Source: Asparagopsis taxiformis
Taxonomy: Eukaryota; Rhodophyta; Florideophyceae; Bonnemaisoniales; Bonnemaisoniaceae
Assembly: GCA_030407315.1 (NCBI GenBank)
Contig: JALQPE010001880.1
Coordinates: forward strand, 1 to 64,000
Length of the DNA: 64,000 bases
Direction of reading: 5' to 3'
Every line of letters begins with the position of its first letter. Positions within the stretch are counted from its first letter, which is position 1. The position numbers and the translations under genes are program-made. Below the pieces are notes generated by a model, which made no database searches, was not told the origin of the DNA, and was given only the letters and a program-made list of their open reading frames with translations. This document shows positions 4,840-38,693 of the stretch, piece by piece.

Positions 4840-4860
4840 CCCAGTAAGAAAAGTTGACGA
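4840..4860 (+). repeat. CMC transposon left terminal inverted repeat
   Basis: Starts CCCAGTAAGA. Its partner at 34863-34882 reads CCCAGTGAGA on the minus strand. It is preceded by TCT, the target duplication. Confidence 0.8.
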
Positions 4861-4877
4861 TCCGCTGACCTCCTGCA

Positions 4878-4967
4878 GATGTACGCTTTTTGATGTACGC
4901 ATGACATTCGAAAGGGTGACTTTCAATGTACTCTGGATATCCGCATAGCGATGTCTGTATGATGTAC
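4878..4967 (+). repeat. Subterminal short repeats
   Basis: GATGTACGC occurs at 4878-4886 and 4892-4900 with a 14-bp period, and GATGTAC again at 4961-4967. Short subterminal repeats are typical transposase-binding sites in CACTA-type elements; that role is inference here. Confidence 0.4.
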
Positions 4968-5124
4968 TACTGATTTACGAAGGATGCCAGACTATGATCA
5001 AGTTTGTTTGAGGGAAGATATGGGAAAATCTGGGTTCCTTATTTTTCAAAGTGCTTATGAATTTTGCATAATTTATACACGAGACGGTAAGAGAGGATAA
5101 GTATCGTCCACAATTAGTGGCAGA

Positions 5125-5218
5125 AAACCATGCGAACACGCAATCTCGAATATGGAGATTGATTCAATATTAATATTGAATCAATCTCCATATTCGAGAT
5201 TGCGTGTTCGCATGGTTT
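5125..5218. repeat. Perfect palindrome, 47-bp arms, no spacer
   Basis: The left arm 5125-5171 and right arm 5172-5218 are exact reverse complements, centred on AATATT/AATATT. It could extrude as a cruciform or make a long RNA hairpin. A second perfect palindrome starts three bases later. Confidence 0.95.
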
Positions 5219-5221
5219 GCT

Positions 5222-5277
5222 GACAAAGACGTGCAAACTGGCTCTGAATATTCAGAGCCAGTTTGCACGTCTTTGTC
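5222..5277. repeat. Perfect palindrome, 28-bp arms, no spacer
   Basis: Arms 5222-5249 and 5250-5277 are exact reverse complements, centred on GAAT/ATTC. Only the bases 5219-5221 separate it from the palindrome at 5125-5218. The sequence differs from the first, so this is two independent palindromes rather than one duplicated. Confidence 0.95.
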
Positions 5278-5747
5278 GTCGCCAGCAAGGTACTTCAGGT
5301 TCGATGGCAAAGGATAGCTACGCATCATCAATATCATCATTAAATTTTACCTACACTCACTTTACGAGCACATCGATTACGTACACGGTTCAAATCACGC
5401 GAAACTCTGGCGTTGAATTGAATGAACGCCAGCGCTCAGGCTTGGCCCAGTTACTAGAAATGAAACAAGTATGGGTAGCATCGGCACATACCAGGGGTAG
5501 TATGGTTTACCGGTGCACGCAACGGACAAGATGAACACATGGGTGGTACCCTTTCTGCGTGCGTATAGACATCAAAATTCCACTATCATGGTGCTCAATG
5601 ACGACGCGTGACATTATTTCCACGACCTAAATGTAATGGGATTACTAGGTAGAATGCGGAAAGAGGAGGGGATGAAGAATGGAGGTTGAAGAACATTGTC
5701 TATGGAAATTGAACAGCGAAGGGGCCGCTAGAATCGAGTGACTAGCT
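5278..5747. other. Gene-free stretch right of the palindromes
   Basis: An open frame of 105 codons (5217-5534) starts inside the palindromes and shows no recognisable domain. I see no gene here. Confidence 0.4.
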
Positions 5748-7579
5748 TCAGGACGAGTCTAGATGGAGTTTGCTTTGGAATGCTGGCGACTCTTCGTAGA
5801 GAAGTTGAAGATATGTACATTGTTGAGCGAAGAAACAATCAATAATTACTATCCTTGCGCAGCTCGACTGTACCGTCCACTTTTTCAATACGATAGAGAA
5901 ACTGATGAAGGCGTCATTTCGCACCACATGCTCCCTCATATACTTATCGTTCTCCGTCCCCTTCAGCTTCCACAATTCTTCTTCCGCCTCCGTTCCCCCT
6001 CTCACGGTTTCCATTCTTTCATCTCCACCATCCCCTCCACTTGTCTGCAGACATGCTCGATACCCGCCCACCAGCCGACCATGCCACCTCCGTACTCCCT
6101 CCCTCCCCTCTGCCATTCCCACAAACACGTCTTGGGCAAGATCATGTAGTCGTGCCCCCATCACCAGTCCCCCCCTCATCTTCTTCTAGCCATACCACAC
6201 TGTGCCTCGAAAACATACGCACCACTGACAATACATCATCCACATCCCACAGCTTCTCAATCGCCCCCAGTGGAAGACACATCTTCTTCTACACAACGCA
6301 AAACGACTGAAACATCTCTCCCACTCTCATCCTCTGCCCCTCCTACACTCTCTCCAGACACACTAGGCTCGACTGTATAGCTACATCCAACCCCCGATGT
6401 CTACTCTAGCTTTCTGCCCCCGACAGCTGTACACTGCTCCGCCTGAGGCTCTCCTCGTATTGATCAATGGCATTCGGTCCACACACATCTCGGAGTCGAC
6501 CAAACACCTCTTGCGTCCCAGACCCAGCAACACTCAGTGCCAGTGGCAGTCCCACACATACCTCAATGATGCCCTCAAGTGCATCACGGTTGGCGGATAA
6601 CCACGACACCACCTCGTTACTCTTGATCCTAGCGTACTTGCATAGAATCTCGGTACATGCTTCCCTTCGCAAATCTTCAGGACTCACTGCAATTGGCACA
6701 CCATGCGTCGGTACTCTCCTAATCGCCTCATTCCCCGTCGAAGTCAGCACTTTGAAACTTCCTCCCTCATCAATCTCTTGCACACCTTTACAGGCGGTAT
6801 CCACCAACGTGTGCACAACGGGATCGAGATCCCACACGTCGTCGAAGATGAGGAGGAAGCGCTTCGCCGCTAGTAGGTCGAAAAGCTTTTCGAAAATGAT
6901 GGATCCATCATGTTCACACGCGTATTGTCTTTTGCAGCGAGATGAGTGATTTTGTCGAGGAAATCTGGGAACGCATCGGAGACAATCTCCGAAAGCTAGT
7001 CGAATAGCCTCTGCACTTTGGCGTTGTGGCCCAGTTCAATGTAACACACGCCGTCTGGGAAGTTTTGCGAAACATCTGCGCGTCTGCCGAGGGCGCGCAA
7101 GATAGTGGTTTTGCCTGCGCCTCCGATGACGACAAGTGCTATAGCGGTTTTGTTTGGTCGTTGGACAGAATGGAGAGCTTGGCCTTGCTTTCTGGAGTGC
7201 GGGAGTTTCGGGAAAAGTCGAGTACAATCTGGGGAGAGTTTCGGGGGACGTGGAAAACGGAGGGCTGCAGGGTGTGCGGGGAATGTGACGGCTGGACGGA
7301 AGATGGTGCAGGAGTCGAATGGGGAGGCAGATGAGAGGGCTGGGACACTGGATGGGGTGAGGAATACTGAGCGATGGGGGAGTTGCTGCGGTGGAGGGAA
7401 CGGGACTTGTGGTATGAGGTGGGGGCGCTGGATGGTTCGGAGGAGGAGGGATTCGGGGTGGGGCTGAGCGGTTGACTCGGAAATTTTGCATGACGATGCA
7501 TGTGGGCATTGTCCGAACGTGGAAAAATCTCTGAAGCTGCTGCACGGTTACTTGCTCGTGTGCTCTCCCTGTTTATCAT
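5748..7579 (-). pseudogene. NB-ARC (STAND) ATPase pseudogene
   Basis: A plant/APAF-1-type NB-ARC nucleotide switch, in pieces. In order on the minus strand: a Pro/Ser-rich leader (7480-7190), Walker A VVIGGAGKTT (about 7130-7104), Walker B/kinase-2 LLIFDDVWD (about 6855-6830), FKVLTSTGN (about 6755), GLPLALSVAG (about 6555-6525), winged-helix remnants with KLWDVDDV (about 6240) and LHDLAQD, ending in the YMREHVVR region (about 5940). Lesions: a missing A at about 7150, TAG at 6996-6998, a frameshift near 6920, and stops at about 6405 and further on. No effector repeats follow. It lies inside the CMC transposon, next to the TBCD fragment on the other strand. Function would have been immune-type signalling; this copy is dead. 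Confidence 0.8.
7500..7569 (+). pseudogene. TBCD: Tubulin cofactor D fragment, upstream part
   Basis: Reads GKISEAAARLLARVLS, a helix of the TBCD HEAT array, and is cut at the CTCCC target site of Copia-1. The frame continues at 18782 without a break. Upstream (stop at 7491) the frame ends and NB-ARC sequence on the other strand takes over, so the N-terminal part of TBCD is absent. Confidence 0.65.
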
Positions 7580-7890
7580 TTCTCCTTTTGATAACCATGA
7601 CTTTCACACGTGTTCCAATGATACACGTTGCCAACGTTCAGCTTGCGATTTGCAATTTCGAGGAGAGTATTACATGGCACTCTAACTACTGACCATGATA
7701 TTCAGTGATTAGAACAGTGTGAACTCACCTGCAATTTTTACTCTACTGATTCATTCACCCTGTTCTACGCCACCTAGAATTAGTACATATAGCCTGCTCC
7801 TTCCTCCCTATCAACTGGATAGCTACTGGAAGATTACAGAACACTTTACTTGTACTTTTCTCGGTCCTCACAACACCATTCATTTTCATT
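7570..7890 (+). repeat. Copia-1 5' LTR (321 bp)
   Basis: Identical by eye to 18456-18776; followed directly by the primer-binding site. Confidence 0.95.
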
Positions 7891-7903
7891 GTTATGGGCC
7901 CAG
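7891..7903 (+). other. Copia-1 primer-binding site containing the gag start codon
   Basis: GTTATGGGCCCAG is the exact complement of the initiator tRNA-Met anticodon arm. The ATG at 7894 opens gag-pol, so the AUG pairs with the CAU anticodon of the primer tRNA. Confidence 0.75.
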
Positions 7904-10900
7904 AGCCTAAACCTTCCAATGTGCCGTCACGCCCTCGCTTTGCATGGGATTCCAAGACAGTCCCCTGGACTGATGGAAAAGGGAATCAAGACGAGTACGC
8001 TGAATCCGTTCGCTTGTGGAAGGCTTTTCATGATTTATTACCCGATAATAATGGCAATAAGATACCAAAAGAGTTGCAAGGCCTTATGTTGCAGAGCCAG
8101 CTATACGGCCGAGCTCGTGACCTCTGCAAATCAATACCGGAAAGCACTATTCAGTCTGTTGATGGTGCTACTGCGATTGTTAATGCCATTTTCAAGCGTG
8201 ATCCACTTGCTGTTGTGAGTGAGGTATACCAAGACTACAATGTATTACTGAATACAAGGCGCTACCCGAATGAGTCGTTCAAAAATTTCGAGTCGCGTTT
8301 CGAAGCTCAAGTATCTAAGTTTAACGCGCATTCTACTGAGACGAAACTGTCTGCTGCTCTTACAGCTTTTATGCTATTAGCAAACTCCAATATTGACAGC
8401 AACCAAAGAGTTGCTATTCTTGCTGCTTCCGCCCCGCGAGTGAGTGAACAAGACAGCAACCTCTCGACTACTGCATGTTTACAAGCTGTTACCTACAGCT
8501 CTATTGCAACAGTACTACGACAATGTGACAAAACAGTCACTAACGGCCCCTATACTGATAACAGTAGCTCCTTGCAGGCTAACTACATTTCGCGTCCTCT
8601 GCGTTGCAACCGGAATCGCCTCTCTGCAGAGCAGCTTGCTGCTGTAAAGGCACGAAGCCGTTGCCGTAAGTGTCGGCAGATTGGACACTGGGCTGTTGAT
8701 CATAATGCTGATGGTTCTTTGAAGTCACCAAACTCTACACCAGCCACTGACACAAATGGTTCTACATTTCCATCAACTGTTACAAATCAAGCTAAGAAGT
8801 CTGTCACCTTTAACATGGTTAAAATACACAGTAATGGTGTTGGTTCAGATGTGCGGGAACCGATTGGTCCCCTTCTTGATGATGGGGCCCCTTACAGTGG
8901 GCTTGGCTGGAATGAATTGAAACTACTCCAGAAATTCATTTGCCCGAATTGGACTGGATCGCTAGACCCTATACCTGATTCTATTGCCGACAGGCCTTAT
9001 TGGCAGTATGGATCAGGCAATCATGCAAGTGACACACGTCGGATACTTGGATCCATTTTATTGGAGGCTTCATGTGACGATGGGAGTATCGTCAGCATTC
9101 GACACTTGGTAATTGATGGCTCATCTCAATGGGTCATAGGCCGCAATGTTACTAAACACTGTGATATATTGCACATTGGGAAGAATGTGCTACAACTACC
9201 TTGCGACAGTGAAGGTCTATCATACGGAAGTATCTCTCTTGTCAACAGAGATATGCATAGCTATGTACCATATCCATGTTTCTTATCAAGAGAAAGAGAG
9301 CTTTCCAGTGCAGAGAGCTCTACTATATTTTGTGCTGCAGCAAGCATCGAAGATTCAAACTGCTCCCGGCCGTGGTCTGAAATGCGCAAAATAGTTGACA
9401 AAGTACACCGCCATGTTTGCGGTCATTCGTCGTACACTGATATCAAGATTTTGCTCACACGAAATGGGATATGGAGCAATGAGGTTCAGAAGTATCTACA
9501 TCGCCTCCTAGAATCATGTGCTCACTGTAGTACTACTCATGAGCCCAAGCAAGCAAGGAAAGTATCATTAAGTTCAATGAGCAGACAATTTAACCATGTG
9601 GTCTGTATTGATCACCTGCATCTTGGTGATATGAGGGTAATTCACATAATGGACTCTGTGACACGATACTCAACAGGGGCAGTAGTACCTGATACATCAA
9701 TGAGTCACGCAATTACTGCATTCGAATCCCATTGGGTCTCAGCATTCTGGCCACCTGATTGTGTACTGTATGATCCTGCTTTTGGAAACAAGAAATTTCT
9801 CAATTATTTGGAGAAACTTGGGATTGAACCCCGTCCAATCCCGCCTCGTCGTCATAACAAAAATGTCATCGAATCAAAACACCGTGTGATTCGAGATATT
9901 TTCATTCGCCTGGAACATGAGCTGAAAGGTTCGCCGGAAGACCGTGAACTGCTTGTACAGCAGGCTCTTCGAATATCCAATGATCTTTATGGCAATGATG
10001 TTATGTCCGCCCATGAACTAGCAAAGGGATACACGCGTCCTATCGAATCGGGAAGTACTCCAGCTCTAGTTCCTGATGATATACAGACTGCACACGACGA
10101 GTTACTAGGCAAACGAAAGTTGAATTTAATACTGCGTTCTAAGTCAGTGGCTGATACTCCTATTCATGTTGGTGATACTGTTCAAATTTACATCAGGCAG
10201 CAAAATGAAAAGAGAGGAAAGTGGTCTGGCCCACGACAAGTGCTATCCTATGATCATAAGTCACGTACAGTGACTGTACCTGGCTCACGTGGCCAAAAAG
10301 TATCTGCTGCAGTTGAGGATGTTCGACACTCTATATCAGGAAATATGCTTGCCAGCGCTATTCAAGACGCCATAGACACTGTTGAAAGATGTACTGACGC
10401 TTCCATTGATGAGATTAGTTCTGATGAGCAAAATGATGTGGATGAAAATGCAGGACTTCCATCTACACACTTACAGGATGTAAGTGACTTTGACATGTCC
10501 CAACAAGACATTCCACTGTGCACTATCTCGGATTCACGACCTGCAGAATCTGTATCCGTTCCTGCCAGCGAAAGTGCAACGTTTCCCTCTGTCGGGGACA
10601 GTATTGACGTGTACTGGCCATTAGACAAGATGTACTACTCCGGGAAAGTATCTCAGATTGATGACCAATTATACACTATCAATTATGATGATGGAGATTG
10701 TGAAAAAGTACTGTTGACTGATGAAAAATGGAAATTTTCAACTTCTGCCAAATCAGTTACAAGTAATGAAATTACAATTACGCCTGGCGAATGTCTTTCC
10801 AGTAATCAAGAGGAAGTGATGGACCAGTACTACCAGATGTTTGGTAACAAAGACTTCATGTCCTTCCAAGCCCAAAGCCTACCCTCTTATATCACATATA

Positions 10901-12427
10901 ACGCTTACCAAAAAGAGGAAGAAGCTTTTATGAAGACCGTGCGAGAAATTCCTGTAGAAAACGTTCCCCCAGATGGAAATATCATTACTAGCCATGTCAT
11001 ATACAAGGTCAAGCAATGTGATGATGGGTCAAGAATTATGAAAGCACGTATTGCACCACATGGAAATAAGGATCGTGAGAAACACACCCTCAAATCAGAC
11101 TCTTCCACTTGTCCGCCTGTTGGTATTCGTATCCTACTCTCACTTGCTGTTTTATTCAAATGGACAATTGCCAAAATTGACTTTAAAAACGCTTTCCTAC
11201 AAACAGGAAAGGCAGCGCGTGATGTCTATGTGGTACCTCCTCATGAATGTTCAAATAAGAAAAATTATTGGTTGTTACTAACAGCCGCATACGGACTTGT
11301 CAATGCCAATGCGAAATGGCAAGACATGAGCGATGACTTCTTGTTTTCTATTGGTTTTAACCAGCTTGTATATGTACCCCAGTTGTTCTATTCTTTCGCA
11401 AAAAACAGCTTACAAGTTGTTGCAGTCAAAGTTGTGGATGACATATTGTTTGCTGGTCCCAGACATATTCTGGAAGGTATTATTGCAGATATTGCAGCAT
11501 CATATGTTCTTGGAACAATCGTGTATGGGCCAGGCCAGTTCATGTTTTTTTGGGCTTTCTATTAATCAAGACGAAGAATACTCCATTACGGTTGATGCAG
11601 ACCAAAAATTAGACCGTTTGGAACCTTTTCCAATTGATCGCATACGACGCAAACAAATTGATGCAGCACTCAACGATGTTGAACTATCGTCATTTCGCTC
11701 TCTCAACAGCTCTATTGGTTGGTTGGGTATTTCTGCTTCACCTTTCTGCGCTCATACTGCTAGCTACTTACAGCAGAAGAGTCCCAAACCAACTGTCAGC
11801 CATTTGGTTACACAAATCAATATGCTGCGCAAATTGAAAAAGCTTGGCACTTGTATTAAGTTCAAGCGCCCCACTCTCTGCATACCGCATTCGATTTCTA
11901 TTTTGGTATTTTCAGATGCCAGCAAAATTGATGATATAGGTCAACTTGGTTATGTTGCAGGTCTTCTAATTGGCACGTTGGAATGCGGTTCAGTGTTCCA
12001 TACTCTATCATGGACTTCGCATAGGTCCAAAAGGCCTGTGAAGTCGACTGGTTCAGCGGAAATTCTAGCTGCTGCTGCTGGTATTGATGAAGGGAAGCTT
12101 CTTGTGAAAGCTTTTCAAACGCTTCTGGACATGTATATCTCACATATAATCATTGTTGATTCCAAAGATCTGTTTTCTACACTATCCACATGCAGAAGTG
12201 CTACAGACCGCTCTATTAGAGCAGATGTCAGTGTCATGCGTTATGAATTTGAGACACAGAATGTCAATCAAATTATGTGGATCCCTGGTAATCTGAATCT
12301 TGCCGACCCGTTGACGAAGCCAAACAGTCCTCTCATATCTTTATTGCAGCTTGCAATGTACTCCAGTGAGATCCCTATGTCATTTACAACTGCATTGAGC
12401 AGGAGTACTGCTCGATCTACTGGCTAG
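7894..12427 (+). CDS. Copia-1 gag-pol polyprotein (one frameshift at 11545-11551)
   Basis: Single gag-pol frame of a Copia element. In order: gag; a CCHH knuckle CRKCRQIGHWAVDH (about 8660-8700); protease-like LLDDGAPYSG (about 8870-8900, DDG instead of DSG); integrase zinc finger and core with CIDHLHL, YDPAFGN and VIESKHR as D, D, E (about 9390-9900); a Tudor-like SH3 fold domain around VYWPLDKMYYSGKV and NYDDGDCE (about 10590-10740); reverse transcriptase with KVVDDILFAG (about 11425); RNase H with LVFSDASK (about 11905). A run of seven T (11545-11551), one more than the frame needs, shifts the last third into another frame. Otherwise intact, so the element was recently active. The stop codon lies within the Gypsy-1 target site. 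Confidence 0.92.
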
Positions 12428-12428
12428 T

Positions 12429-12789
12429 TGTAACGAACTGAAGCTGATGCCAGCAATGGCCAGCATAAACTAGTGTATTCTAGACACTACAAGTTACACT
12501 AAGTTTACTCATATACTATAGGCTGCTAGAAAGTAACTTGCTGTTACGCCTAGAAGTATCTAGTTGGCTATGTCATCGAGTGATGTCATGATGGCATCAT
12601 GTTAGATTTATTTTGATGACATAATTTTATTTAGATTAGTATTTTCTAGAATTAGTTCGACATCGAACTACAATTCTATGGTGGGTATAAAAAGGCATGG
12701 TCAACTCCGGTCTTGGGGGATCGGAGGCATCATCGATCATTCAACGAAAACAACTACCACTCAGCTATCCCGTATACACATTCGTTTCA
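12429..12789 (+). repeat. Gypsy-1 5' LTR (361 bp)
   Basis: Starts TGTAACGAAC and ends CGTTTCA. Carries a TATA box (TATAAAAA at 12686-12693). Confidence 0.96.
12686..12693 (+). promoter_or_regulatory. Gypsy-1 LTR TATA box
   Basis: TATAAAAA about 100 bp before the LTR end; the 3' LTR has the same at 18325-18332. Confidence 0.6.
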
Positions 12790-12790
12790 C

Positions 12791-12808
12791 TGGTAGCATC
12801 GCTTTCTA
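12791..12808 (+). other. Gypsy-1 primer-binding site
   Basis: Begins TGGTAGCATCGC one base after the LTR, as expected for pairing with a tRNA 3' CCA end. The donor tRNA cannot be named from the window. Confidence 0.5.
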
Positions 12809-12889
12809 CGGGCGCACTGAGTGAGCAGTTCGGCAAACGCCGGCCGACTGCAAGCTCTTGGCTGAAAAGCCATCGTTGGGAGTTATTGA

Positions 12890-13093
12890 ACACCTGAGGG
12901 CAGGAGTGCCAGGTGTAAGAACTGTAGTGTCTCCTACCCCTTGAGCAAGGGTAAGTTACCTGAGGGCAGGAAGGCCAGGTAACTAAGGGCCTACAGGAGG
13001 GACTGTAAGTGGTCAACCCGAGGGCAGGAGAGCCGGGTTGTACCTGAGGGCAGGAGGGCCAGGTGGTGTCTGAGGGCTGGAGAGCCAGACATC
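12890..13093 (+). ncRNA. Array of five covarying stem-loops in the Gypsy-1 leader
   Basis: Five hairpins share a 13-nt loop of consensus AGGGCAGGAGNGC while their stems differ and still pair. Stems: ACACCTG/CAGGTGT (12890-12916), AGTTACCTG/CAGGTAACT (12954-12984), CAACCCG/CGGGTTG (13014-13040), ACCTG/CAGGT (13042-13064), TGTCTG/CAGACA (13067-13091, extendable to 13093). Compensatory changes with a fixed loop argue for selection on RNA structure, for example packaging, dimerisation or translation control. Two extra hairpins of other loop type lie between them (about 12936-12955, 12991-13008). Confidence 0.85.
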
Positions 13094-13593
13094 CCACTTA
13101 CAGAACCTAGATCGGAAGTCTAGCTTCCTGGAGGGATTCTTGATTCTCAAGACTATCCTCTGACCAGTCCTGTGCTGTCGCCAATTGTATTCCCTATACA
13201 TCCTATTCCACTTGTTGGCTGTTAGCTAGGTGGACCGACAGGGTCACGGATACGGGTAACGCAGGCTTGATAGGGGTAAGGACTTGGACTAAGAGGGGTG
13301 GAGAGGAGATAGGAAAACTTGAGGAAAGTTGGGTACGGTCGACTCGCGAAACTTTCTTATAGGGTAAGGACACCGAAGGGTTTACATCGTAAACTGGTGG
13401 GGATATCCCGAACGGATCGTTGAACCACATTCCCTGGGGTGGGTGTGATCAGAGTGCTGAAATTCCTCTCTCCGCGGGTAGAGGACCCGTCGTCAAAGGA
13501 CGAATCCTTTCAAAAATTGGAAACTGGAAATTTGTTGTTGAAGAAGAAAGAAGTTTTTTTTAAGGTTTTAAGTTTGGGAAGAACACTGTCATT
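13094..13593 (+). other. Rest of the Gypsy-1 leader
   Basis: About 500 bp between the hairpin array and the gag ATG. No reading frame of interest. A purine-rich run lies directly before the ATG. Confidence 0.5.
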
Positions 13594-14361
13594 ATGTCGT
13601 TATTGAAGCCCAATAAGCCCCCGACATTCGATGGAACGCGTGATGCGTTTACTGTTCGGACGTGGCTACACTCTGTTGGAAGGTACATTTCTCTCATTCA
13701 GGTAGGCTCGGATGCAGAAATATCCGATAAACAAGCTATTGATTTCGCTTCGACGTTCATGACAGGGGTGGCTGCCAACTGGTGGTTTACCGTTGTCAAC
13801 GGAGCGAAAATGCCTGATTCTTGGGAGGCCTTCTCAAACCTGGTTATTCAAGAGTTTGTTCCTCAAGATAGTGCTGTTAGAGCTCGCGATAAGCTCAGCA
13901 AGTTGAAACAGAAAACAGGCGTTTCTGCCTATCTTTCCGAGTTTAGGAACATCGTAATCAATATCCAGGATATGAGTGAGGGTGAGAAGTTGGCTCGTTT
14001 CTGTGAAGGTCTCAAGTCTCATATTCTTCTTGATGTTCGCAAGAACAATCCATCGGACCTTGATGCCGCTGCAAACATTGCTCTTAGCGTTGATGGTGCT
14101 TATTACGGAGCTGGGTTCTATACAGGAAAAGTTGTTCCTTCAAGTTATTCCGGGTACGCTCCCATGGAAATCGGCAACTTCGAGAAAAGCCATTCCATGA
14201 ATGCCCAGAAGAGGAAGGATATTCGTGAGAACCTATGCTTTGTATGTCACAAGCCCGGTTGCAGAGCGTATAGGCACAAAGGGGAAGTCAAGAAGAGGCT
14301 TAACACGAACAATACTCAGGTTCATTGGGGTGCACCGAGTTCCTTTCCACAGGAAAACTAG
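13594..14361 (+). CDS. Gypsy-1 gag
   Basis: 255-residue capsid protein of the Retrotrans_gag type: PTFDGTRDAFTVRTWLHSV near the start, a WW-containing core (AANWWFTVV, residues about 61-69), and the EFR/L-x-RFCEGL segment. A degenerate C-terminal zinc knuckle CFVCHKPGCRAYRH lies at residues about 216-229. It overlaps pol by 37 bases, with pol in the -1 frame, so pol is probably made by -1 frameshifting in the overlap. I see no textbook slippery heptamer in phase. Confidence 0.92.
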   Translation: MSLLKPNKPPTFDGTRDAFTVRTWLHSVGRYISLIQVGSDAEISDKQAIDFASTFMTGVAANWWFTVVNGAKMPDSWEAFSNLVIQEFVPQDSAVRARDKLSKLKQKTGVSAYLSEFRNIVINIQDMSEGEKLARFCEGLKSHILLDVRKNNPSDLDAAANIALSVDGAYYGAGFYTGKVVPSSYSGYAPMEIGNFEKSHSMNAQKRKDIRENLCFVCHKPGCRAYRHKGEVKKRLNTNNTQVHWGAPSSFPQEN

Positions 14362-18026: not shown

Positions 18027-18049
18027 CTATGTTGATGAGGACATCAACT

Positions 18050-18067
18050 GTGTGAGGGGGGGAATAG
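18050..18067 (+). other. Gypsy-1 polypurine tract
   Basis: GTGAGGGGGGGAATAG ends at the first base of the 3' LTR, as expected for the plus-strand primer. Confidence 0.8.
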
Positions 18068-18428: not shown

Positions 18429-18455
18429 CTAGTCAACCTCTCGAAAAGGGATGAG

Positions 18456-24400: not shown

Positions 24401-24689
24401 CCCCGGTCTGCAACAACAGTCTTGACAGCATTCACCCAAACCGAAGCCAACATCTCGCTGTATAACAGTCGTGCTGCATTTGAAAACGTAAACTCTGCGT
24501 CACACACTGTCACTATTGCAGCTCGTCCGTTTCAACCATAGCTTAATAAATTTCGGCACTACTACTTTGACCTATAGCCTCCATCACACTCTTTTCAATT
24601 CCAACATTCCTTTATCATCTTTCTTCCTTGCACTCTGCTATTTTCCATCCACAAGCACTATACTAATCGATAGAACATGGGGATTATAA
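21409..24689. other. Gene-free cargo stretch of the CMC transposon
   Basis: Several open frames of 60-185 codons occur on both strands, but none shows a recognisable domain and they overlap each other. A possible decayed TBCD tail at 21409-21800 is not convincing. No repeat structure stands out except short TGTACAC-type repeats near 21900-21970. Confidence 0.4.
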
Positions 24690-25247: not shown

Positions 25248-25260
25248 GTGAGGAGTTTAG

Positions 25261-25895
25261 GTGCTGCTCATTGTGGTACTATCGCCGTCCAGCTGTGCTT
25301 CATCCAGCGCTTCTGCAGACTGCTCATTCCAAGACACAGACTTCGTATGGACGTCCGATCGATTCTTGTCATATGGTTACGGGTTTGCTGCTGCAAAAGT
25401 TGAGATAATGTTTCCATCTGCACTGAACGAGTTCAGAAAACCAACGAGTAACAGTTCCATTCTGATCGTCAACAACAATCTAAACAACACAATTACCGTG
25501 AAGAATATGCGACGAATCGCCGGATGTTTGACACGACGAGTAGTTTAGGCCAAAGATGCCCGTTGGAAATTGTGAAACTCGAAATATCGCGATCAATGCG
25601 CTTTGATACGTCACACACCTTCCGTATCTCCATCAATTCCGACTCTCTATTGAACGTCAACATTGTTGGCCCATCCTCCGAAACTCCAAACGCGGACACG
25701 TCTGGAAGAAATAGAGAGACCGACTCGATTGTGTTATCCACTAGTCGCTGGTGCAAGTTGTGCAATTCCTACGCTGCAGGATCAGCGTGTGCAGTTTCGC
25801 CGTGGCGGGATAAACCAGTGAAATCGATCCAGAGTGATATTTTAATACGATTTGATTTCACGGCGCATACAATTGCTAGCTATTGGTCAAGTTAG
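25261..25895 (+). pseudogene. Unrecognised coding-like region in two frames
   Basis: Two overlapping plus-strand frames (25261-25548 and 25524-25895) read like one protein with a frame change near 25530-25548. The first opens with a hydrophobic, Ser-rich segment resembling a signal peptide; the second contains an amphipathic strand-rich stretch (KLEISRSMRFDTSHTF) and several Cys. I do not recognise a family. It could be a decayed secreted protein gene or chance. Confidence 0.25.
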
Positions 25896-28080
25896 TATAG
25901 ACCAACCCTTTGCGCCTCGGTAAGCTTCTCTATCGATATTGAACCTTCGGCTGTTCAGGATGGCAGGCTGGTTGTACATCTGTACCTTCTGGTAGGCATT
26001 ATGAAGTACTCGTCTCCCTATATTACCTAGCCTCTCAAGAAAATAAACTAGAGAGCTACCATCGTAGCGACATTATTGTTCTACATGCGAGCAAAAGTCG
26101 CACATCCCAAACTTGCACTCTATAATTTCACACACAAGTTTTGCGATGGGTTGAAGGACAGAAGGGCGCGCTTCACAACATTTTCGGGCGCGGTGGAGGA
26201 TGGTGACAGATCAAGCAAGGGCCGCTGAATGGACGGGAAATAGAAAGGTTTGGGTTTGGTGATATGCATCTTAAGAGTGGTGCGCTGAGGTAGAACCGAT
26301 CAAGGGGAGCGAGAGAAACCTGGAGAGGGAAAAGGAAGCGGGGTGCTGAAGAAACGGACAGTGCATTGTGGGGGTGTGTGAGCGCTGAAGGGAGCAGTCC
26401 AGACGAGAGAAGCATTTACCCTTGGTGTTCCAAGTGTGTTACAAGCAAGCAAAGAGATAAGGGTTGGTTGTGGAGATGCATGGAACGGAAAGAGCTAAGA
26501 GAGTTTAGGCAATGAGACAGAGCGTTCGGGAGGAGGATCGGAGATTTCGGCGGTGGACGAGCAGTGCGGCGATGACGCGATGTGGGGATGCTAAGGGATT
26601 TATTTGTCGCGAGGTGGGAAGATGTAGCGGACTGTAAAATGAGTTGTATTGGGAGCTCATGGGAAAGAGTTAATTTTTCAACATAGATACTGCTGACTTG
26701 CAGCTGTCAGTGAGGTTCGGACTTTGATTCGAGGACGACTAAGAGAGTCATCACTGCGTGATATAAAACACAGACACCAGCGTGGGGCCCGAAGTACTGC
26801 AGTATGGATGCAAGTTGGGGACTTGCGGGCTGCGTGACACTCTGCCATGTGGTTCATAACTGTATTTCAAGAGGTTGATCAGCTCAAGTTTCGCACACGG
26901 CGCGGTATGGGGGCCAGGACACGATGACGCAGCTGAACTGTTATGACAGGCGCGTATAATTTTGAAAATACAAAAAATGCAAGAACGAGAGCAAAATTCC
27001 CTGATCAGATTGCTCAGGACACACCGAGATACACGAATTGGCCTATGAAGTATCAACAAGTCAGGGCAGCAACATATAATGCCTAGCATCGTCACTCGAG
27101 ACAAATCAGTCTCCTTGCAACTGATGCAAGGCATGTCGACCCATGACTGTTCAACACTCAAGTCCCCAAGTACCAGGAAGAATAACTTCTTGGAGGCGAT
27201 TTCATGATCATCAAAACTCCTATTGCTGCAAACTGCTGAGACCAGAGTCCTAGATTTGAGCAAACTTCTCTCTTGTCTCTTCCATCCTATCTCCGGCATT
27301 AGGCACACCCGAAATGCGAACCCTGAGATAGGTCGGCAAAGCTCTCTTCGATCCAAAGCTCCAACCTGCCCCTGGTCCATAATCGCCACAGTGTTCTCTC
27401 TATGCATCGCACTGTAATGGTGAATAACTCCTCCAGCGTTTATCTTGTCAATGTTTTATTGCATCTCGATACGCCATTCTAGTTGGCATCTTAGAAACGA
27501 TTGATTGATCATCACTTTTGCAAATGATAGTTCACATCGTAAATCCGATCGTCACGCAAACGCTAGCGTTGGCGCACACATTATTGATTTCAAGCCAGCC
27601 ATTGTTCCTCCTCTATGCAGTATTTTCGAATAGATGGTTCACACATTGAAAAACAGATAGAGATGACAAAGCTACTTTCAGACAGCCAATTTTGTCTGCT
27701 TACACAAAAAACCATCAAAGAGTTGTTATATGTGCAGAGTGTAAGCTAGGCTCCCGACGATTACGTGGATGATTTGAGTCTCCTGGAGGGAATATACTGG
27801 AAAGTGATTCATATTATCTATTCTGCGATTATGAGATGGAAAAGCTTGGTTGAAGTGGAAAGTTATTCCAGTACAAACGTTCGATTGTTGTATGAATCTG
27901 TGTATAAATTACGTGAAACTCGCCGCCGGACTACCACAAATGCTCTGTATTCCTGTTCATGTACGAGAAATCATCTCTTCTCTTTGGATCTGGTCACAAA
28001 GAACAGCGATTAGTTCTACAATCAAGTGATAGTTCCGGCGACTCATTTGGTTCTAGCTTCACTGTCGGTATTTTGTACCA
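25896..28080. other. No convincing gene
   Basis: Holds a 218-codon minus-strand open frame (26751-27407) with no recognisable domain and a composition rich in Cys and Ser, and a purine-rich plus strand at about 26200-26620. I see no motif that supports a gene. Confidence 0.4.
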
Positions 28081-29064
28081 ATGAATAGAAAGAAAGGTGA
28101 GATGAATGTGGAATGGGTGATTTGTGGCGACGGAAGCGTTGACAAGAGTGGACTTACGCTGGAGAATGGGAAGATGTATGGAAATGAATGCAAGACGGGT
28201 GGCTATGAATCTTATTATCAAATCGATTTTCAGTCTCTAAACGTGTGGAATGTGACATTGGAAGTTCCAGTGATGGAAACGATGATATACGAAATTGGGA
28301 CAGGTGTTTCAAATGAAGGTGAAGCAAAAGCATCTCTCAGTGAAAGTATATCTCCATGTTCAATTTACAGTAATCTAAACGGCAATATTATTGCTCGAAG
28401 AAAGACCGGAAAGTACCTTGCACTGAGTCCGAAGAATGGAAATGTTGGGAGACAATTGGAAGCATGGTGTTTTGAGAATAGAGGAGTGCCCGTTTTCATT
28501 GGTGGGCCTGGTGCGAGATGTCCAATTTACAACATAAAGAGGTATCAGGTGGACGATCAAGGGCACATTTTGATGAGCCAAAAGTCTGGTTTCTGTGCAA
28601 TTGCGTCCATGGTGAATGCGATTGACTGTCTAGTAGGCCGGTTGCGGGCTGAAGAAGCAATGTCGCTTTGGAGAAACACTACACCAAAGGTGAGGAGTCT
28701 GAAAGATTTAAACAACCTCATTCAAGATCTGAAGTTCAATTTATGCGTTAGAAAAGTTTCCAAAGATGAAAAGGAAGCTTTGGAATTGGACAGATTCAAA
28801 TGGTTGGCAGAAAGGAAAAAAGGAGTATGGATTGTGAGAGTAGAGAAGAAGAAAATTGCTGACCATTGCTTCGTTATTGATGGTTATCGAGGTTTGGTAG
28901 TTGACAGCTATTCGAGTCTCCCGCTAAAGCTTTCAAAGGCAGTTCTGAAACGGATGGGAGGCTCGAAAGTGCGTGAACTTGAAGTTACAGATATCAGACA
29001 GCTTTGCCATGAGAGAAGGAAGAAACGCAAGGTATCTGAGACAGAAGTCATCAGTTTAGTCTAA
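28081..29064 (+). CDS. Papain-like cysteine protease candidate carried by the CMC transposon
   Basis: 327 residues, intact. The C-terminal half has the layout of a papain/Josephin-type protease: Cys172 in KSGFCAIASMVNAID, His262 in ADHCFVIDGYRG and Asp275 in VVDSY, with a helix of charged residues between. The N-terminal half (residues 1-150) is unrecognised. It faces the transposase tail-to-tail and lies within the element ends, so it is probably transposon-encoded, as Ulp1-type proteases are in some other DNA transposons; substrate unknown. The start is the first ATG after stops. An alternative is a captured host deubiquitinase-like gene. The protease call rests only on spacing of the triad. 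Confidence 0.6.
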   Translation: MNRKKGEMNVEWVICGDGSVDKSGLTLENGKMYGNECKTGGYESYYQIDFQSLNVWNVTLEVPVMETMIYEIGTGVSNEGEAKASLSESISPCSIYSNLNGNIIARRKTGKYLALSPKNGNVGRQLEAWCFENRGVPVFIGGPGARCPIYNIKRYQVDDQGHILMSQKSGFCAIASMVNAIDCLVGRLRAEEAMSLWRNTTPKVRSLKDLNNLIQDLKFNLCVRKVSKDEKEALELDRFKWLAERKKGVWIVRVEKKKIADHCFVIDGYRGLVVDSYSSLPLKLSKAVLKRMGGSKVRELEVTDIRQLCHERRKKRKVSETEVISLV

Positions 29065-29401: not shown

Positions 29402-30085
29402 CTATGATAGCCCACGTACCGTCACAAGATTGTCTCGCCGATACAGTTTCAGATTTTCATGCAAAGGGTCAATGTAGTACCTTCTATCATTGATATCCAT
29501 GAAAGCAACCATGCGGTTCATACAACTGATGTGTTCAACCGATTTGTGGCGACCTTTTGGGCGGAGAGAATTTCGGGCTGAACGACTTCTCTCAGAAAAA
29601 TAAAGTTCTGTCCGGTTATCAGAACTAAGGGAAATTTCCCAGTGAATCTTTGCGAGCGTAGTATACCCTTCCTTTCGCTGTGAAGTGAAGAAGTCTACAT
29701 ATGAGAATTTTACCTCCCATAATTCATCAACATATCCGTAGTATACGTCGACCGTATTTCTTTCTCGATCCATGGAACTATTCGTATCTCCTGTTATGAA
29801 ATTGCAAGCGACACAAAATTTCTGTCTCGCCGACTCCCCTTGTTTCCTCAGGCGTCTTTTGTACTGATCTATAGTTTCCAGCTCGAGCGGAGAGTCTGAG
29901 TCTCCATAGATAATTTTGATCCTTTCATGTCTGGAAATTTGTAATATTGAAACATCATCTGAACCAGGTGGCAACATTATTAAAACTTGTGCCATTGCTG
30001 CTTGAGCTCTATTTCCTCCCGAGATGGGATTTCCCTTTGAAAGTAACTCGTATCTCTTCCTCGTAATGTGTTTCATTCTCATCAA
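29402..30085 (-). CDS. Transposase C-terminal extension frame
   Basis: 227-codon frame overlapping the end of the transposase frame by 77 bases in the +1 frame. Rich in basic residues and aromatic pairs (KIIYGDSDSP, VDVYYGYVDELWEVKF). It could be joined to the transposase by splicing, by +1 frameshifting, or by an indel in this copy, or be a separate small protein. Its direct overlap with the transposase suggests it was once the C-terminus. Confidence 0.55.
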   Translation of the reverse strand: MMRMKHITRKRYELLSKGNPISGGNRAQAAMAQVLIMLPPGSDDVSILQISRHERIKIIYGDSDSPLELETIDQYKRRLRKQGESARQKFCVACNFITGDTNSSMDRERNTVDVYYGYVDELWEVKFSYVDFFTSQRKEGYTTLAKIHWEISLSSDNRTELYFSERSRSARNSLRPKGRHKSVEHISCMNRMVAFMDINDRRYYIDPLHENLKLYRRDNLVTVRGLS

Positions 30086-32345
30086 ATGTTTGGTGCTCCA
30101 GCCTCATATTCCCGAGCCCTTCCCTAGCTTTGGCTGATCCTTTCTCTATTCCTCCTTGAAGTACCCGTAAAGAAAAAAGAAGATGTGTTTTGTGAAACAA
30201 GTTGGCCTCTGGTCTTCTCCTAGAACCAACTTGATCACTCAACTCTCCTACAATTCGTTCCATGAGAAACTGGGATACACTGATCAACGGACCACAGTCT
30301 CGGAGCATGTCTGGCAGCTGCAAAATCGCATGGGTTGTAGGAGTGAAACAGAAGCCGTATGCATCATCGATAAAAAAAATATCTGAGAATAGAACATGAA
30401 TTGATACAATCATCCTTCTCAAATCATCAACGTCGGATACGTTCGGTGTGGGATTTAGTATAATATGAAGTGCTTTCGATATCACGTGCCATAGCTCCAG
30501 AATCCTTGCATCAACAGACGGTCCACTGAACAATATAGGTGCGTAGTATAACCCAAACATCTTATAGTCTTCAGCCTTGTACTTATTGATAGAATCAAGA
30601 GAAAGGGGCTTCCTTCCCCAGCATGATGGAACATATCTTGCGTTCTTTCTAAGAGCCTCATCGATATCAGAGGCAACTTGAACGTCAATAATATATCCAG
30701 CTTTAAGCCTTACAGATCTTTTGTCCAATCCGAGGCAAAGTATTAAAATATGTTTGACTAATCCGAGCAAGCACAAATGCATGGGATCATAAGGGAATGA
30801 CTTGACAAAGTCAAGGTTGAGCTTGGATATTATCGGGTTTCGTTTGATACCAGTTGACGCAGTAATGGTCTGAGAGGAAGGGCAGAACTGAATACCTTCT
30901 TTGCTGGATAGCTCGATATATTCCCATGTATCTTTCGTTTCAAGACTTGTCCGAGGTCTTGGACATTCATTTTTCATCCACTGATTGCAATAGAACTCAG
31001 AGGCACAACGCAGAATAGAATTCCTGAGATCCAAAGTTCCTTCTGGAATTGCTCTCAGACTCCTTGACACAGAGTCATATCGGGCTTCTTTCTTACAATG
31101 ACGACAGAAAAACTTGGCGTTGTGACCTGAGAATCCAATTATCTTACTCGCGGCTGGGAAATCTGCTGTAATGAATATAACATGTGCTTTCAGTTTCCTC
31201 TCCTTCTTATCGTAGCACTCAGTCATAACACCTTCCTGTAATCGACGTAAGTCCTCGACAATGGGGTGTAGAAATGAATCGAAATATGCAGAACTATGCG
31301 AACCAGGAATAAAGGCACAAACAAGAGAGTTACAAGCCTGGAATCTGTGTTTCACATCGAAATTGAGAACAGAGAAAGCTACCGGCCATGTTTGATGTGC
31401 AGTTCCCCGCCCTTGAAAAAGCTCAAATCCGTCAGATGAAAACGAGAGAAATATATTGATTTCGTTTCCGTCATCCCATTCCCGAGCTCTATGACCATGA
31501 AGTCTTCGGAAGAGAGCTCCGTCATAATAATCAGTGAAAAGTTCACCCTGAGGGAGTGATGCAGCTTGCTTAGCTCTCTTACAGCCTTCTATTATTTCTA
31601 AGAATGATGTCTCAGAGGCGCAAAGAACTTTCAGCTGATCTGATAAAAGCGAGTACCAGTACCGCCTGGCTAAGTCAACTTTCTTTCCACAAGAGGGTAG
31701 AGGACAACGTTTTACATTTGAAAGGGTACCAGTAGCGGCCATGTGGCCCTCTCGACACATAGAAACGAATCTACGCGGTACATTACCACGCCTTCTCAGT
31801 TTCGACACCAATGACTTGTACGACATTCGAGCATCGACAAACTTTGTTTGGAGAAGGGCAGAAATTTTAGATTGGGACATTTTCGATCGCTCAGTTATTC
31901 TCAGAATTTCAGATAGCTCCATTAGCTCCTGAGTTTCAGAATCTTGGGAGGAAGCTGTAAAAATACTAGAAGAGTCCGAGCTCAGCAAAGATTCTCTGTC
32001 AGAGAAGACCTCACATGGAAGACCAGCCAGCTCAAGTACATCCTCAGAAACTACAGGAAGAAGCTGTGATTCGCCAGATTGCCATCGTCTTACAAATACG
32101 TTCCGCTCCTCCGAAGTATCAGAAGACGTTGTTTGAGAGTTGCTCTCATTGCTCTCCGTTGAACTGCTCGGGGAGTCCTCCTCTTCATCAGGGCACCGTA
32201 AAAGTTCTTGCCGAAGCCAAGAAGCTCTCCGACCATGCGTTCTTTCTTGATTCAACTGTTCTGAAACATCACCTGCCTGGTCGAGTTCCATTGATGAGGT
32301 AATGATACCCTTTTGGCTGCCCATCGTGCTAGAAGAGCTTTCCAT
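30009..32345 (-). CDS. CMC-superfamily (tnp2-like) transposase
   Basis: 778 residues from ATG at 32345. The N-terminal 140 residues are acidic and Ser-rich. A zinc-ribbon-like CREGH...CPLPSCGKK lies at 197-222. The catalytic core has Asp305 in FSSDGFELF, TWPVAFSVLNF after it, Asp395 in ITADFPAASK followed by a CRHC knuckle (414-417), and the C/D(2)H signature as DPMH at 520-523 in FPYDPMHLCLLGL. A late Glu in FLMERIVGELSDQ is the likely third acid. This order is that of CACTA/En-Spm tnp2 proteins. It cuts and joins element ends carrying the terminal repeats found at 4840 and 34882. The frame is intact, so recent activity is plausible. Confidence 0.85.
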   Translation of the reverse strand: MESSSSTMGSQKGIITSSMELDQAGDVSEQLNQERTHGRRASWLRQELLRCPDEEEDSPSSSTESNESNSQTTSSDTSEERNVFVRRWQSGESQLLPVVSEDVLELAGLPCEVFSDRESLLSSDSSSIFTASSQDSETQELMELSEILRITERSKMSQSKISALLQTKFVDARMSYKSLVSKLRRRGNVPRRFVSMCREGHMAATGTLSNVKRCPLPSCGKKVDLARRYWYSLLSDQLKVLCASETSFLEIIEGCKRAKQAASLPQGELFTDYYDGALFRRLHGHRAREWDDGNEINIFLSFSSDGFELFQGRGTAHQTWPVAFSVLNFDVKHRFQACNSLVCAFIPGSHSSAYFDSFLHPIVEDLRRLQEGVMTECYDKKERKLKAHVIFITADFPAASKIIGFSGHNAKFFCRHCKKEARYDSVSRSLRAIPEGTLDLRNSILRCASEFYCNQWMKNECPRPRTSLETKDTWEYIELSSKEGIQFCPSSQTITASTGIKRNPIISKLNLDFVKSFPYDPMHLCLLGLVKHILILCLGLDKRSVRLKAGYIIDVQVASDIDEALRKNARYVPSCWGRKPLSLDSINKYKAEDYKMFGLYYAPILFSGPSVDARILELWHVISKALHIILNPTPNVSDVDDLRRMIVSIHVLFSDIFFIDDAYGFCFTPTTHAILQLPDMLRDCGPLISVSQFLMERIVGELSDQVGSRRRPEANLFHKTHLLFSLRVLQGGIEKGSAKAREGLGNMRLEHQTFDENETHYEEEIRVTFKGKSHLGRK

Positions 32346-32876
32346 TCTGTTATCTTACTTCGCTTATGAGAATTGGAAATAATGATACCAATTTGTTGCT
32401 TCTCTTGAGCTTTTCGATGGGTACACAAACTTCCCGGATAAGTAGTGGATCATTTCTGTTTCCTGAGCGTTGAATCTATTCTACTAAGATAGTTCAAGGC
32501 GTTTTTGTATTGGGGTACTCTCCAGAATTACGATGAAACGAGCAAGTTTATCGTTCTGATTGAAAATGGTCAATCAGAAGTATCAGGATCCAGCGTAGAA
32601 AAGAGAAAATGGAATCCCTGTTTCCCTAGAGGAAAGAGCGTATTCATGAAATAGAAAACCTACATCAATTGATAGGCTTCACGTAAATTTGCGGCTCAGG
32701 AAGATATCCTGGAACACGAATAGAACGGGCCCTCACATGAAGTCCTTTTTCCGCTTCCAAGTTGTGGAGGCTTGAAAAGCTACCGTAGGAATTCCTATTA
32801 ATAAGATCCTTTGGATAGACCATTTTCCCGTGTAATTGAATCATCTCCTTTCCCAGCTGCCTCCCATTGCCTCCCG
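32346..32876. promoter_or_regulatory. Divergent intergenic region of the transposon
   Basis: About 530 bp between the head-to-head transposase and the gene at 32877; it presumably contains both promoters. A 113-codon minus-strand frame (32665-33006) overlaps the neighbouring gene and is more likely a shadow. Confidence 0.4.
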
Positions 32877-33806
32877 ATGCCATACTATCTTTCACAGCCA
32901 AGCGAGGAAATTCAGGATCTTGAAGATTGTACAAGGAATGGAGATAGCAATTCAGATGTTTGTGGAGACTTTCCAGGAATAGAGCTTCAATCTCGATGTA
33001 TACCACTGCCGCCTACCAGTGTATCCAGATTTCCAGGCCGGGGTGGTACACCAGGATCTGGTAGTCAAAGAACAACAAGAGAAGTTTACAACAGGATGTA
33101 CGCGCAGTTTGTCGGTGGTGAATACGACGAGAATCACCCAATATCGAGAGAAATGGTAACTGAATGTGCGGAGATATGTCGAAGCTTCTTATACCTTGAG
33201 AAAGGCATCGAATTAGGGATGTATACTTGGAAAGGGTTGCGTGCATCTCATAGTCAAGCAATATTCGAGTTGAGAAGAATATTGGAGAGAACATTCAAGG
33301 AATTTACCCTTGCGAAAGGATATTGGGCAGCAAATCACTTCATAAAAGCAATTCTACGTCGTGACAAGGGACGATTACGAGTTGCAGCCGTTGACCAGTC
33401 TACTTCAAACGATCAAAGACCTCATCGTAATGCAACAAATATAGAAATGAACAATAGGAATGATGGACAAGAGATACAAGCTGCTGCTAGGAATCCGGTG
33501 AGACAAAATAACACTGTGGAACCGCCCAATTCCAACCTAAGGACAGCAATTACTCAAGAAGGGCGCACGTCGAATAACAATTCATCATCCCCCACAGGAA
33601 GACGCTCTACAGTCTTTATACAAGTACCGCGAAGATCCTCTAGACGTCTTGGGCAAAGGAACTCAGCCATACGAAACAACACATCTGATCTTGTGAACGG
33701 TACACCAATCAGTAGAGGGAGAACGCGTACAGTGAATGGAGGGGCAGGCCGTCATGGTGTACTACGTCAAAACAGGCAGCTTAGAAATATTCGGAGAAGA
33801 CCTTGA
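32877..33806 (+). CDS. Unknown transposon-encoded protein
   Basis: 309 residues from ATG 32877. Residues about 70-170 form a compact helical region (EICRSFLYLEKGIELGMYTW, FELRRILERTFKEF). The rest is basic and low complexity, rich in Arg, Asn, Ser and Gly (RRSTVFIQVPRRSSRRLGQR). The basic tail suggests nucleic-acid binding. It is divergently transcribed from the transposase, the place where CACTA elements carry an accessory DNA-binding protein (TnpA-like role). That role is inference; I recognise no family. Confidence 0.6.
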   Translation: MPYYLSQPSEEIQDLEDCTRNGDSNSDVCGDFPGIELQSRCIPLPPTSVSRFPGRGGTPGSGSQRTTREVYNRMYAQFVGGEYDENHPISREMVTECAEICRSFLYLEKGIELGMYTWKGLRASHSQAIFELRRILERTFKEFTLAKGYWAANHFIKAILRRDKGRLRVAAVDQSTSNDQRPHRNATNIEMNNRNDGQEIQAAARNPVRQNNTVEPPNSNLRTAITQEGRTSNNNSSSPTGRRSTVFIQVPRRSSRRLGQRNSAIRNNTSDLVNGTPISRGRTRTVNGGAGRHGVLRQNRQLRNIRRRP

Positions 33807-34862
33807 TGAATAGTTCGACGTGGGTACAATGTGATCGGAGACAGAATAAAATCTCGACAGGCCTGTAGTGAGAAAGAGAAGAAACAGAGTAGTATGTATG
33901 TAATTCAAAGATCCACTGATTTTGACAGTTGAAACGTTAGTTTGTTTGCTCTTTCACTTCTCGCAATTTTTCCTTCGGTACCGCAGAACATACGCATGTA
34001 TAAGCTCAGAACAGAGTCGTACGAAAATCCATCGACCCGTCAAATGCCCTCTCCCGTCGTAGCACTAAAAACTGCAAGCTACTGCTTTTCAAATCACTCT
34101 ATGTCCGGAAATAGTCAAGCCTGCGCGAGAAGCTGATGAGCTTCTCGCGATACGTGGTCCTGTTGGTCTCCAGTTGGATCCGAACTTTGGTGAAATATAG
34201 TTCGGTTTGCAGCTGCAAAATATAGTTATTTTGAAAATAGAGTTTTTCTTAATATGATTTCGCAATGCAACTAGTTTCAATAACTGGACCAATAGCATTT
34301 GATTTACAAGGGATCGAATTTATGAACTGGGACAAAACAGCATTGCTGTAAAGAGAGATTAATTGTTCCCGAACATAGACACCATACATGTACGAGGAAA
34401 ACTTAGGATGCACCAATGTCGAAATTGTGTGAAAGGTTTCGGATTTTATACAGAAAGTAGAATGAAGTATTGTTCTCCAAAATGCCCGTAAATTATCAGC
34501 AGTTAGTATTCCAAGTGCCAGAAACCGCACTAATCATCATGTTATCTAAATTGTAGCGAACAAAAATAGAGGTCACTATCGTATCTGTAGATCTCTGGTT
34601 CATCAACAGTATATCATGCGTATAGGACTTGAATAGGGAATTTTAAGCGGTATGGAATATCACTCCAATTCAGGCATCGTTAATCTATCGTATATCTTCC
34701 GCCCATATTCTCCTTTTCGAGGTATCCCAGGGCATTCTTTGGCTCATCATTATGGGAAAGGGGAAACAACACGAGAATTGAGTTGACATCTCCCGTTCAT
34801 CGGGAGAACGTCGTAGGTTCATATTTACAGAATTTAAGTCTATCACGAAGCCATCTTGTGTT
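33807..34862. other. Right subterminal region of the CMC transposon
   Basis: No gene. It contains two hairpins: 34124-34149 (11-bp perfect stem CGCGAGAAGCT, loop GATG) and 34789-34807 (7-bp stem TCTCCCG, loop of 5). Otherwise AT-rich. Confidence 0.5.
34124..34149. repeat. Perfect 11-bp hairpin
   Basis: CGCGAGAAGCT, four-base loop GATG, then the exact reverse complement. It lies 730 bp inside the right end of the CMC transposon. Confidence 0.85.
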
Positions 34863-34882
34863 CATCATTTCATCTCACTGGG
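34863..34882 (-). repeat. CMC transposon right terminal inverted repeat
   Basis: On the minus strand reads CCCAGTGAGA, matching the left end at 4840 in 9 of 10. Followed by TCT (34883-34885), the target duplication. Confidence 0.8.
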
Positions 34883-38679: not shown

Positions 38680-38693
38680 GGTTATCGGCCCAG
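38680..38693 (+). other. Copia-3 primer-binding site
   Basis: GGTTATCGGCCCAG directly after the LTR equals the initiator tRNA-Met anticodon-arm complement with one mismatch. Confidence 0.6.

Follow-up and report, generated by a model that had tools for sequence, protein, structure and literature searches.

The stretch analysed here, referred to as the window, comprises positions 1 to 64,000 of contig JALQPE010001880.1 from the red alga Asparagopsis taxiformis (C1756:1-64000 in our contig numbering). At 4840-34882 a Copia retrotransposon (the host Copia) is interrupted by a block which is very probably a giant EnSpm-like (CMC-clade) cut-and-paste DNA transposon with host gene fragments aboard. 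The element was compared with the 141.49-Mb assembly of 3,156 contigs. It offers a well-resolved case of the growth of a giant eukaryotic cut-and-paste element: one assembly holds its ends, an empty site, the gene from which one fragment probably stems, and related copies that continue differently. In addition, two orphan genes are proposed as partners of an EnSpm-type transposase.

Ends, insertion site and size

The ends of the element and its insertion site are marked by the following features.

3519-3916, plus strand: 5' long terminal repeat (LTR) of the host Copia, 398/398 bp identical to the 3' LTR at 43547-43944
4837-4839: left copy of the target-site duplication TCT, from the window sequence and the empty site
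4840-4849, plus strand: left terminal inverted repeat CCCAGTAAGA, identical in 20/21 contigs
4878-4967, plus strand: three subterminal GATGTAC repeats (4878, 4892, 4961), from a motif scan
5118-5277: near-perfect hairpins adjoining the left end, with 54-bp arms (96%), from opposite-strand self-matches
34598-34866, minus strand: three subterminal GATGAAC repeats (34598, 34795, 34860), from a motif scan
34873-34882, minus strand: right terminal inverted repeat, TCTCACTGGG on the plus strand and CCCAGTGAGA on the minus strand, in 6/6 right-end matches
34883-34885: right copy of TCT, from the window sequence and the empty site

The terminal inverted repeats are 10 bp long and complementary at 9/10 positions. 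The initial annotation, made on the window alone, had given their consensus as CCCAGTRAGA, which was confirmed in the genome. When the left 501 bp were used as query 51 matches were found, 21 of which, one per contig, began at query base 1; the remaining 30 were hairpin self-matches or later parts of the same copies. Eleven of the 21 left ends were 94-100% identical to the window (family A) and ten were 80-81% identical over the first 187 bp (family B). The left end was exactly CCCAGTAAGA in 20 of them; that of C2374 was one base short and still began with CCCAGT, as did all 21. Judged on 1.5-kb flanks (157 bp for C2362), they represented 14 distinct sites, seven in each family. Three of the contigs (C1851, C550 and C1823) were identical over the first 1.8 kb at different sites, as expected from recent movement. 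A first pattern search of the genome for the right end gave no match. With the right 600 bp as query six matches were obtained, all of which stopped at one base, ..CTCACTGGG, with ACTGGG in 6/6 and three distinct flanks. A short right-end pattern gave 18 matches, six of them exact and already known. The other 12 had two mismatches and were rejected as chance, the reversed-pattern control having given 14.

The motif GATGWAC occurred 12 times in the whole core on both strands, with three inward-pointing copies at each end; it was picked post hoc, after inspection. Plant CACTA elements are expected to carry a repeated subterminal motif, and GATGWAC is in agreement with this.

At the insertion both copies of the 3-bp duplication TCT were present, as had been claimed. 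This length, seen at this one insertion, fits the CMC clade (2-5 bp) and fungal EnSpm elements (3 bp). The joined Copia flanks were then used as query and gave seven matches, among which C2930 and C1624, carrying an uninterrupted relative of the Copia, crossed the junction without a gap (172/181 bases). The stretches of C2930 and C1624 are identical and may be alleles, so that at most one independent empty copy is certain. The left junction with the Copia was found in three contigs (C1756, C1755, C84) and the right one in two (C1756, C1887). The host Copia has identical LTRs, as first noted, and is bounded by ACAGC on both outer sides. From the ends, the empty site, the identical LTRs and the ACAGC borders we concluded that the insertion is real and later than the host Copia.

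The block is 30,043 bp long. Subtraction of 11,212 bp, an inner Copia together with one copy of its duplication, leaves a core of 18,831 bp, as measured against the aligned C1887 and C194, neither of which has the inner Copia; the earlier figure of about 18.8 kb was thereby reproduced. The nested elements are:

7570-18776, plus strand: nested Copia with identical LTRs (7570-7890 and 18456-18776), absent in C1887 and C194
about 12429-18430: Gypsy inside the nested Copia, with a repeat run of 363 identical bp

C1887 and C194 carry instead inserts of about 2.35 kb (108-bp end repeats) and about 0.45 kb (53-bp end repeats). In C1887 these were located at L037 4028-6373 (108-bp repeats) and L038 3290-3728 (53-bp direct repeats). 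In C84, which has the left flank of the window, the distance from the left end to the fragment of a tubulin chaperone D gene (TBCD) was 9,511 bp as compared with 15,519 bp in the window. By coordinates the difference of 6,008 bp indicates that C84 has the inner Copia without the Gypsy, which together with its duplication measures about 6.0 kb. In C1755 both were present at two sampled points. Since C1887 and C194 lack the Copia and C84 lacks the Gypsy, the host Copia came first, followed by the transposon, then the inner Copia and last the Gypsy. Judging from these copies, the inner Copia and the Gypsy are not features of the element family.

The transposase and two accompanying genes

Three genes lie in the right part of the element.

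28057-29061, plus strand: P0002, a 335-aa orphan open reading frame (ORF) and cysteine-protease candidate, conserved beside the transposase gene (tnp2) in sister elements
29405-32354, minus strand: tnp2/EnSpm-type DDE transposase (PF02992, E 5.8e-18; alignment to a 988-aa relative)
32805-33803, plus strand: P0005, a 333-aa ORF divergent from the transposase, from the comparison of sister elements

The initial annotation had placed the element among the CMC-type DNA transposons, and the Transposase_21 match of the window transposase (PF02992, 65.3 bits against a cut-off of 28.6) upheld this. Transposase_21 and DUF1258 were the only domains listed for the transposase ORF. A model for the Plavaka transposase exists in Pfam; membership of Plavaka was rejected, as neither its termini nor this model was found. 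The sole match in the PDB had an E value of 1.1 and was taken as chance, and the homologue search found two relatives of the transposase among 8,000 scored candidates. Compared with the motif list in the part of PMC12730594 that was available, the conserved D, D, C(2)C and E positions are kept and CRHC is present. The motif HxxxH is kept in the sister sequence, P0010, C194 and C2135; in the window and in C1887 it reads HAILQ.

The gene had been described as an intact tnp2-like transposase. Its type stood and its intactness did not, because the window copy is frameshifted, with a 781-aa ORF at 30012-32354 and the C-terminal part displaced to a second frame (29405-30103), and has the altered HxxxH motif. 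In seven family-B contigs the frame is open over 988 codons. No full tnp2 in one frame was found among the family-A copies (best 58 of 96 candidates): the match breaks near residue 660 in C1887, C194 and C2135, and in C697 and C920 the gene is reduced to decayed pieces. As its own transposase is frameshifted, the window copy probably depends, or once depended, on transposase supplied by a different copy.

P0002 and P0005 had been counted as cargo, as a protease candidate and an unknown divergent protein. Both genes are present, but they behave as conserved genes of the element instead. P0002 was found in four near-identical family-A contigs carrying tnp2 and, stop-free and with 63-64% identity, in 7/7 family-B contigs with the open tnp2 frame, some of which may be alleles. 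In the same seven contigs P0005 was 69% identical over residues 38-191. When the window was compared with C2111, nonsynonymous and synonymous differences per site (pN and pS) were 0.249 and 0.770 for tnp2 (744 codons), 0.211 and 0.843 for P0002 (187 codons) and 0.177 and 0.715 for P0005 (154 codons); one sister sequence was used for each and synonymous sites are near saturation, and only the contrast was relied on. Between the window and the C697 copy P0005 gave 0.081 and 0.077, as expected without selection. Going by the contrast in substitutions, P0002 and P0005 accompany tnp2 in sister elements under purifying selection.

The genome search with P0002 gave 52 matches in total, including decayed pieces and distant relatives (24-28%). 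The latter, on C69, C72, C649, C2679 and C3122, possibly belong to the host or to a wider transposon family.

In P0002 the residues C180, H270, D275 and D283 stand in papain-like order and are kept in the 65%-identical relative in C2111. Q175, a possible oxyanion residue, is kept there as well and is replaced by R in P0008. No usable match to P0002 was obtained in Pfam or the PDB, homologue searches found one relative of 184 aa, and the AlphaFold2 model, built on a 4-row alignment, gave no support for a fold (pLDDT 32.7). Nothing usable was found for P0005 in Pfam. That P0002 is a new papain-like cysteine peptidase, and a core transposition gene inherited with tnp2 and P0005, is thus a doubtful proposal, which we put forward tentatively. 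If it were true, P0002 might either process the transposase or, by removing ubiquitin or SUMO, evade silencing, and tnp2, P0002 and P0005 would form a three-gene CMC system.

Host gene cargo and competing explanations

Decayed pieces of host genes account for about 8.6 of the 18.8 kb of the core.

5919-7504, minus strand: decayed NLR-type gene piece with NB-ARC (PF00931, E 3.7e-11)
7505-7569, plus strand: first 65 bp of the TBCD fragment, truncated by the nested Copia, 98.5% to native TBCD
18776-21361, plus strand: remainder of the TBCD fragment, 95.8% to C1970:233300-237000 (PF25767, PF12612)
21362-24661, minus strand: second piece of the NLR-type locus, 83% to C2109:20074-23390 over 3.3 kb
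24664-25748, minus strand: piece of another NLR paralogue, 84% to C2638, C1026 and others

That the element contains decayed host gene pieces was borne out, and their identity was amended: they represent an NLR-type locus, TBCD inside it, and a TIR-bearing piece of another NLR paralogue (TIR domain at 24693-25256; PF13676, E 1e-10). The first NLR piece was up to 89% identical to other loci among the best 40 scored candidates, and its NB-ARC is split over frames. The stretches matching the two pieces of the NLR-type locus are 581 bp apart in C2109 and in C1026, so the TBCD piece replaces about 580 bp lost from that locus. C2109, C415, C251 and C695 each have several matches to the NLR pieces and are probable gene clusters.

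The TBCD piece matches 2,655 bp inside the gene; both gene ends are missing and an inferred intron is retained. TBCD matches were found on 12 contigs, namely 11 of family A including C1756, and C1970; one of the ten other contigs with the fragment, C84, represents the same site as the window. The comparison makes C1970 the likely source gene. Relative to the native gene the fragment has two in-frame stops and a 10-bp deletion, both shared by C1887 and C194, and the claim that the element moved already carrying decayed cargo is in this way supported. The retained intron and the several joins point to uptake at the DNA level, in several steps. C2449 carries a relative of tnp2 (56%) about 8 kb from an NLR piece (90%) and has no TBCD; this is perhaps an element with NLR cargo that predates the TBCD insertion.

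In the mechanism that we propose, the transposase would bind the inward GATGWAC repeats and the CCCAGT ends and cut with a stagger of 3 bp. The simplest route for the capture of host DNA would be template switching during repair of the excision gap, by which the NLR-type stretch, the TBCD fragment substituting for about 580 bp of it, and the join near 24660 to the other NLR paralogue may have been acquired. The loaded element, its cargo already decayed, then transposed into the Copia with still identical LTRs, and afterwards a Copia landed inside the element and a Gypsy in that Copia. Most likely the cargo is an inert passenger. Fragments of host genes, immune-type genes included, are in this way copied around the algal genome along with the element.

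Several observations speak against one giant EnSpm-like transposon with its own genes. The termini are CCC..GGG and not CAC..GTG (CA..TG in most of the CMC clade), for which reason the element was classed as EnSpm-like and not as CACTA proper. In the window copy one His of HxxxH is missing from the transposase. The genome search for like-ended copies, which the initial annotation had suggested, found the same ends, both held by three contigs (C1756, C1887 and C194), and the 3-bp duplication in C1756 only. C194 is flanked by ..TTG on the left and GAG.. on the right, and C1887 by ..TTG and TCT.., without target duplication in either. C697 and C920, which have decayed tnp2 and the right end, list no P0002 (the contig C920 ends earlier). 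Right ends were not seen in family B, where C2916 lists P0002 only and C2375, C685, C443 and C2374 neither tnp2 nor P0002. Finally, six contigs (C1645, C705, C297, C1851, C550 and C1823) share 4840-24660, with 95-96% identity over the second NLR part, and had no match to tnp2, P0002 or the right end among the best scored candidates.

These six contigs suggest an alternative, in which the left 20 kb (end, NLR and TBCD) stem from a transposase-less Pack-type element that recombined near 24660 with an autonomous right half. Where the window switches NLR paralogue, at 24661-24664, all six stay native-like (C705 ends 3.7 kb past the break), and the window sequence past 24664 resembles a different paralogue. 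In C1887, moreover, the left end belongs to one subfamily and the interior resembles a different one, an exchange between copies that is either real or made by the assembly. On the other hand, five of the ten contigs with family-B left ends also list tnp2 (C2361, C2362, C565, C2111 and C2577), on the expected side and strand and with its far edge 18-38 kb from the left end. This was seen as presence on the same contig, not as membership of a single element with the intervening sequence, and it makes the left end plus tnp2 look ancestral. The window copy is, furthermore, a single insertion with one empty site. A hybrid origin is accordingly a possibility that we take seriously and still hold to be rather improbable.

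C1887 also bears on whether the block in the Copia could be a false join of repeats made by the assembly. It has the right junction of the window, with 60/60 sampled bases in agreement beyond the Copia, and on the left it has the flank seen in C194 and C1823. Its first 1.8 kb is identical to C1851, C550 and C1823, and its TBCD part is close to that of the window. C194 and C1887 look like chimeras, through assembly or recombination, and the pair of window junctions together with the duplication was found in C1756 alone. Both junctions nevertheless recur in other contigs, and the TCT duplication, the same Copia with identical LTRs on both sides and the gapless empty site make an assembly artefact very improbable. 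Also very improbable is a cargo vehicle of the Starship type, carrying intact genes useful to the host: the size is large and the NB-ARC and TIR pieces are of immune type, but the cargo is fragmentary (TBCD with two stops, a deletion and no gene ends, NB-ARC split over frames), and the transposase is of the tnp2 type, with no tyrosine recombinase, the captain gene product of Starships, among the scanned ORFs, which were not all of those in the block.

Known giant elements and further observations

The initial annotation had regarded the core as large for its superfamily. It is less exceptional than claimed, as EnSpm families of 16-20 kb with 4-5 ORFs were reported from Chondrus crispus (Kojima, Bao and Jurka 2013, as cited in PMC6431247) and giant EnSpm elements with accessory genes from red algae, in Bostrychia moritziana (Petroll et al. 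2025, as cited in PMC12477816). Going by these citing accounts, the red-algal families share with the element described here the EnSpm-type transposase, several additional ORFs or accessory genes and, probably, the host group, and those of Chondrus also its size. Decayed gene pieces make up nearly half of the core here, a difference judged on the cited descriptions rather than on sequences.

Giant EnSpm, KDZ and Sola-1 elements of Ectocarpus are, in the sections of PMC12477816 available, longer than 10 kb, with nested inserts, extra genes and frequent decay of the transposase. They resemble the present element in size, nested insertions, extra genes and a decayed transposase with presumed help in trans. 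As described there, nested insertions in Ectocarpus are generally fixed among copies, whereas the Copia and the Gypsy here are not, and the EnSpm elements reach at most 15.2 kb as compared with the core of 18.8 kb.

The CACTA elements of Chenopodium capture fragments of host genes and share with the element described here this capture and Transposase_21 (PMC8978399, in the parts consulted). They have CACTA termini in place of CCCAGT and other accessory genes, and their fragments are located upstream of the coding sequence, in the 5' region, whereas those found here are downstream of the transposase gene. Fungal Plavaka and EnSpm elements likewise combine a CMC-clade transposase with 2-3 bp duplications and an accessory gene, according to the portions of PMC12730594 at hand. 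There the accessory gene is TET/JBP, and the termini, TGT..ACA or CATCA..TGATG in Plavaka and CAC..GTG in fungal EnSpm, are not those found here. The P0002/P0005 pair and a cargo of NLR and TBCD were not found described in the literature, which was searched mostly with broad terms and with the red-algal originals outside the scope; the same holds for a three-gene CMC system, for which cysteine proteases were little queried.

Further repeats were noted in the window downstream of the transposon. Inside the host Copia, at 38553-43277, lies another Copia with 122-bp end repeats (97% alike) and a 1188-aa ORF with RVT_2. It is followed at 43277-43534 by a TRIM-like element of 258 bp, with identical 70-bp direct end repeats and a possible CTTTC duplication. 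An inverted repeat at 54795-55771 has 215-bp arms, 98% complementary and 547 bp apart. The Gypsy on the minus strand at 56634-62274 has a weak chromodomain match; two pieces of its end repeats, of 234 and 69 bp, are 100% alike, and one of the repeats is longer by about 64 bases.

Phycobilisome genes gave 13 matches in the assembly, 11 of them on C469, and among 14 control genomes only Synechococcus matched. On these matches a fungal origin of the DNA was rejected. We took C469 to be the plastid genome of the red alga; it may instead stem from a contaminating cyanobacterium or from some other phycobilisome-bearing lineage.

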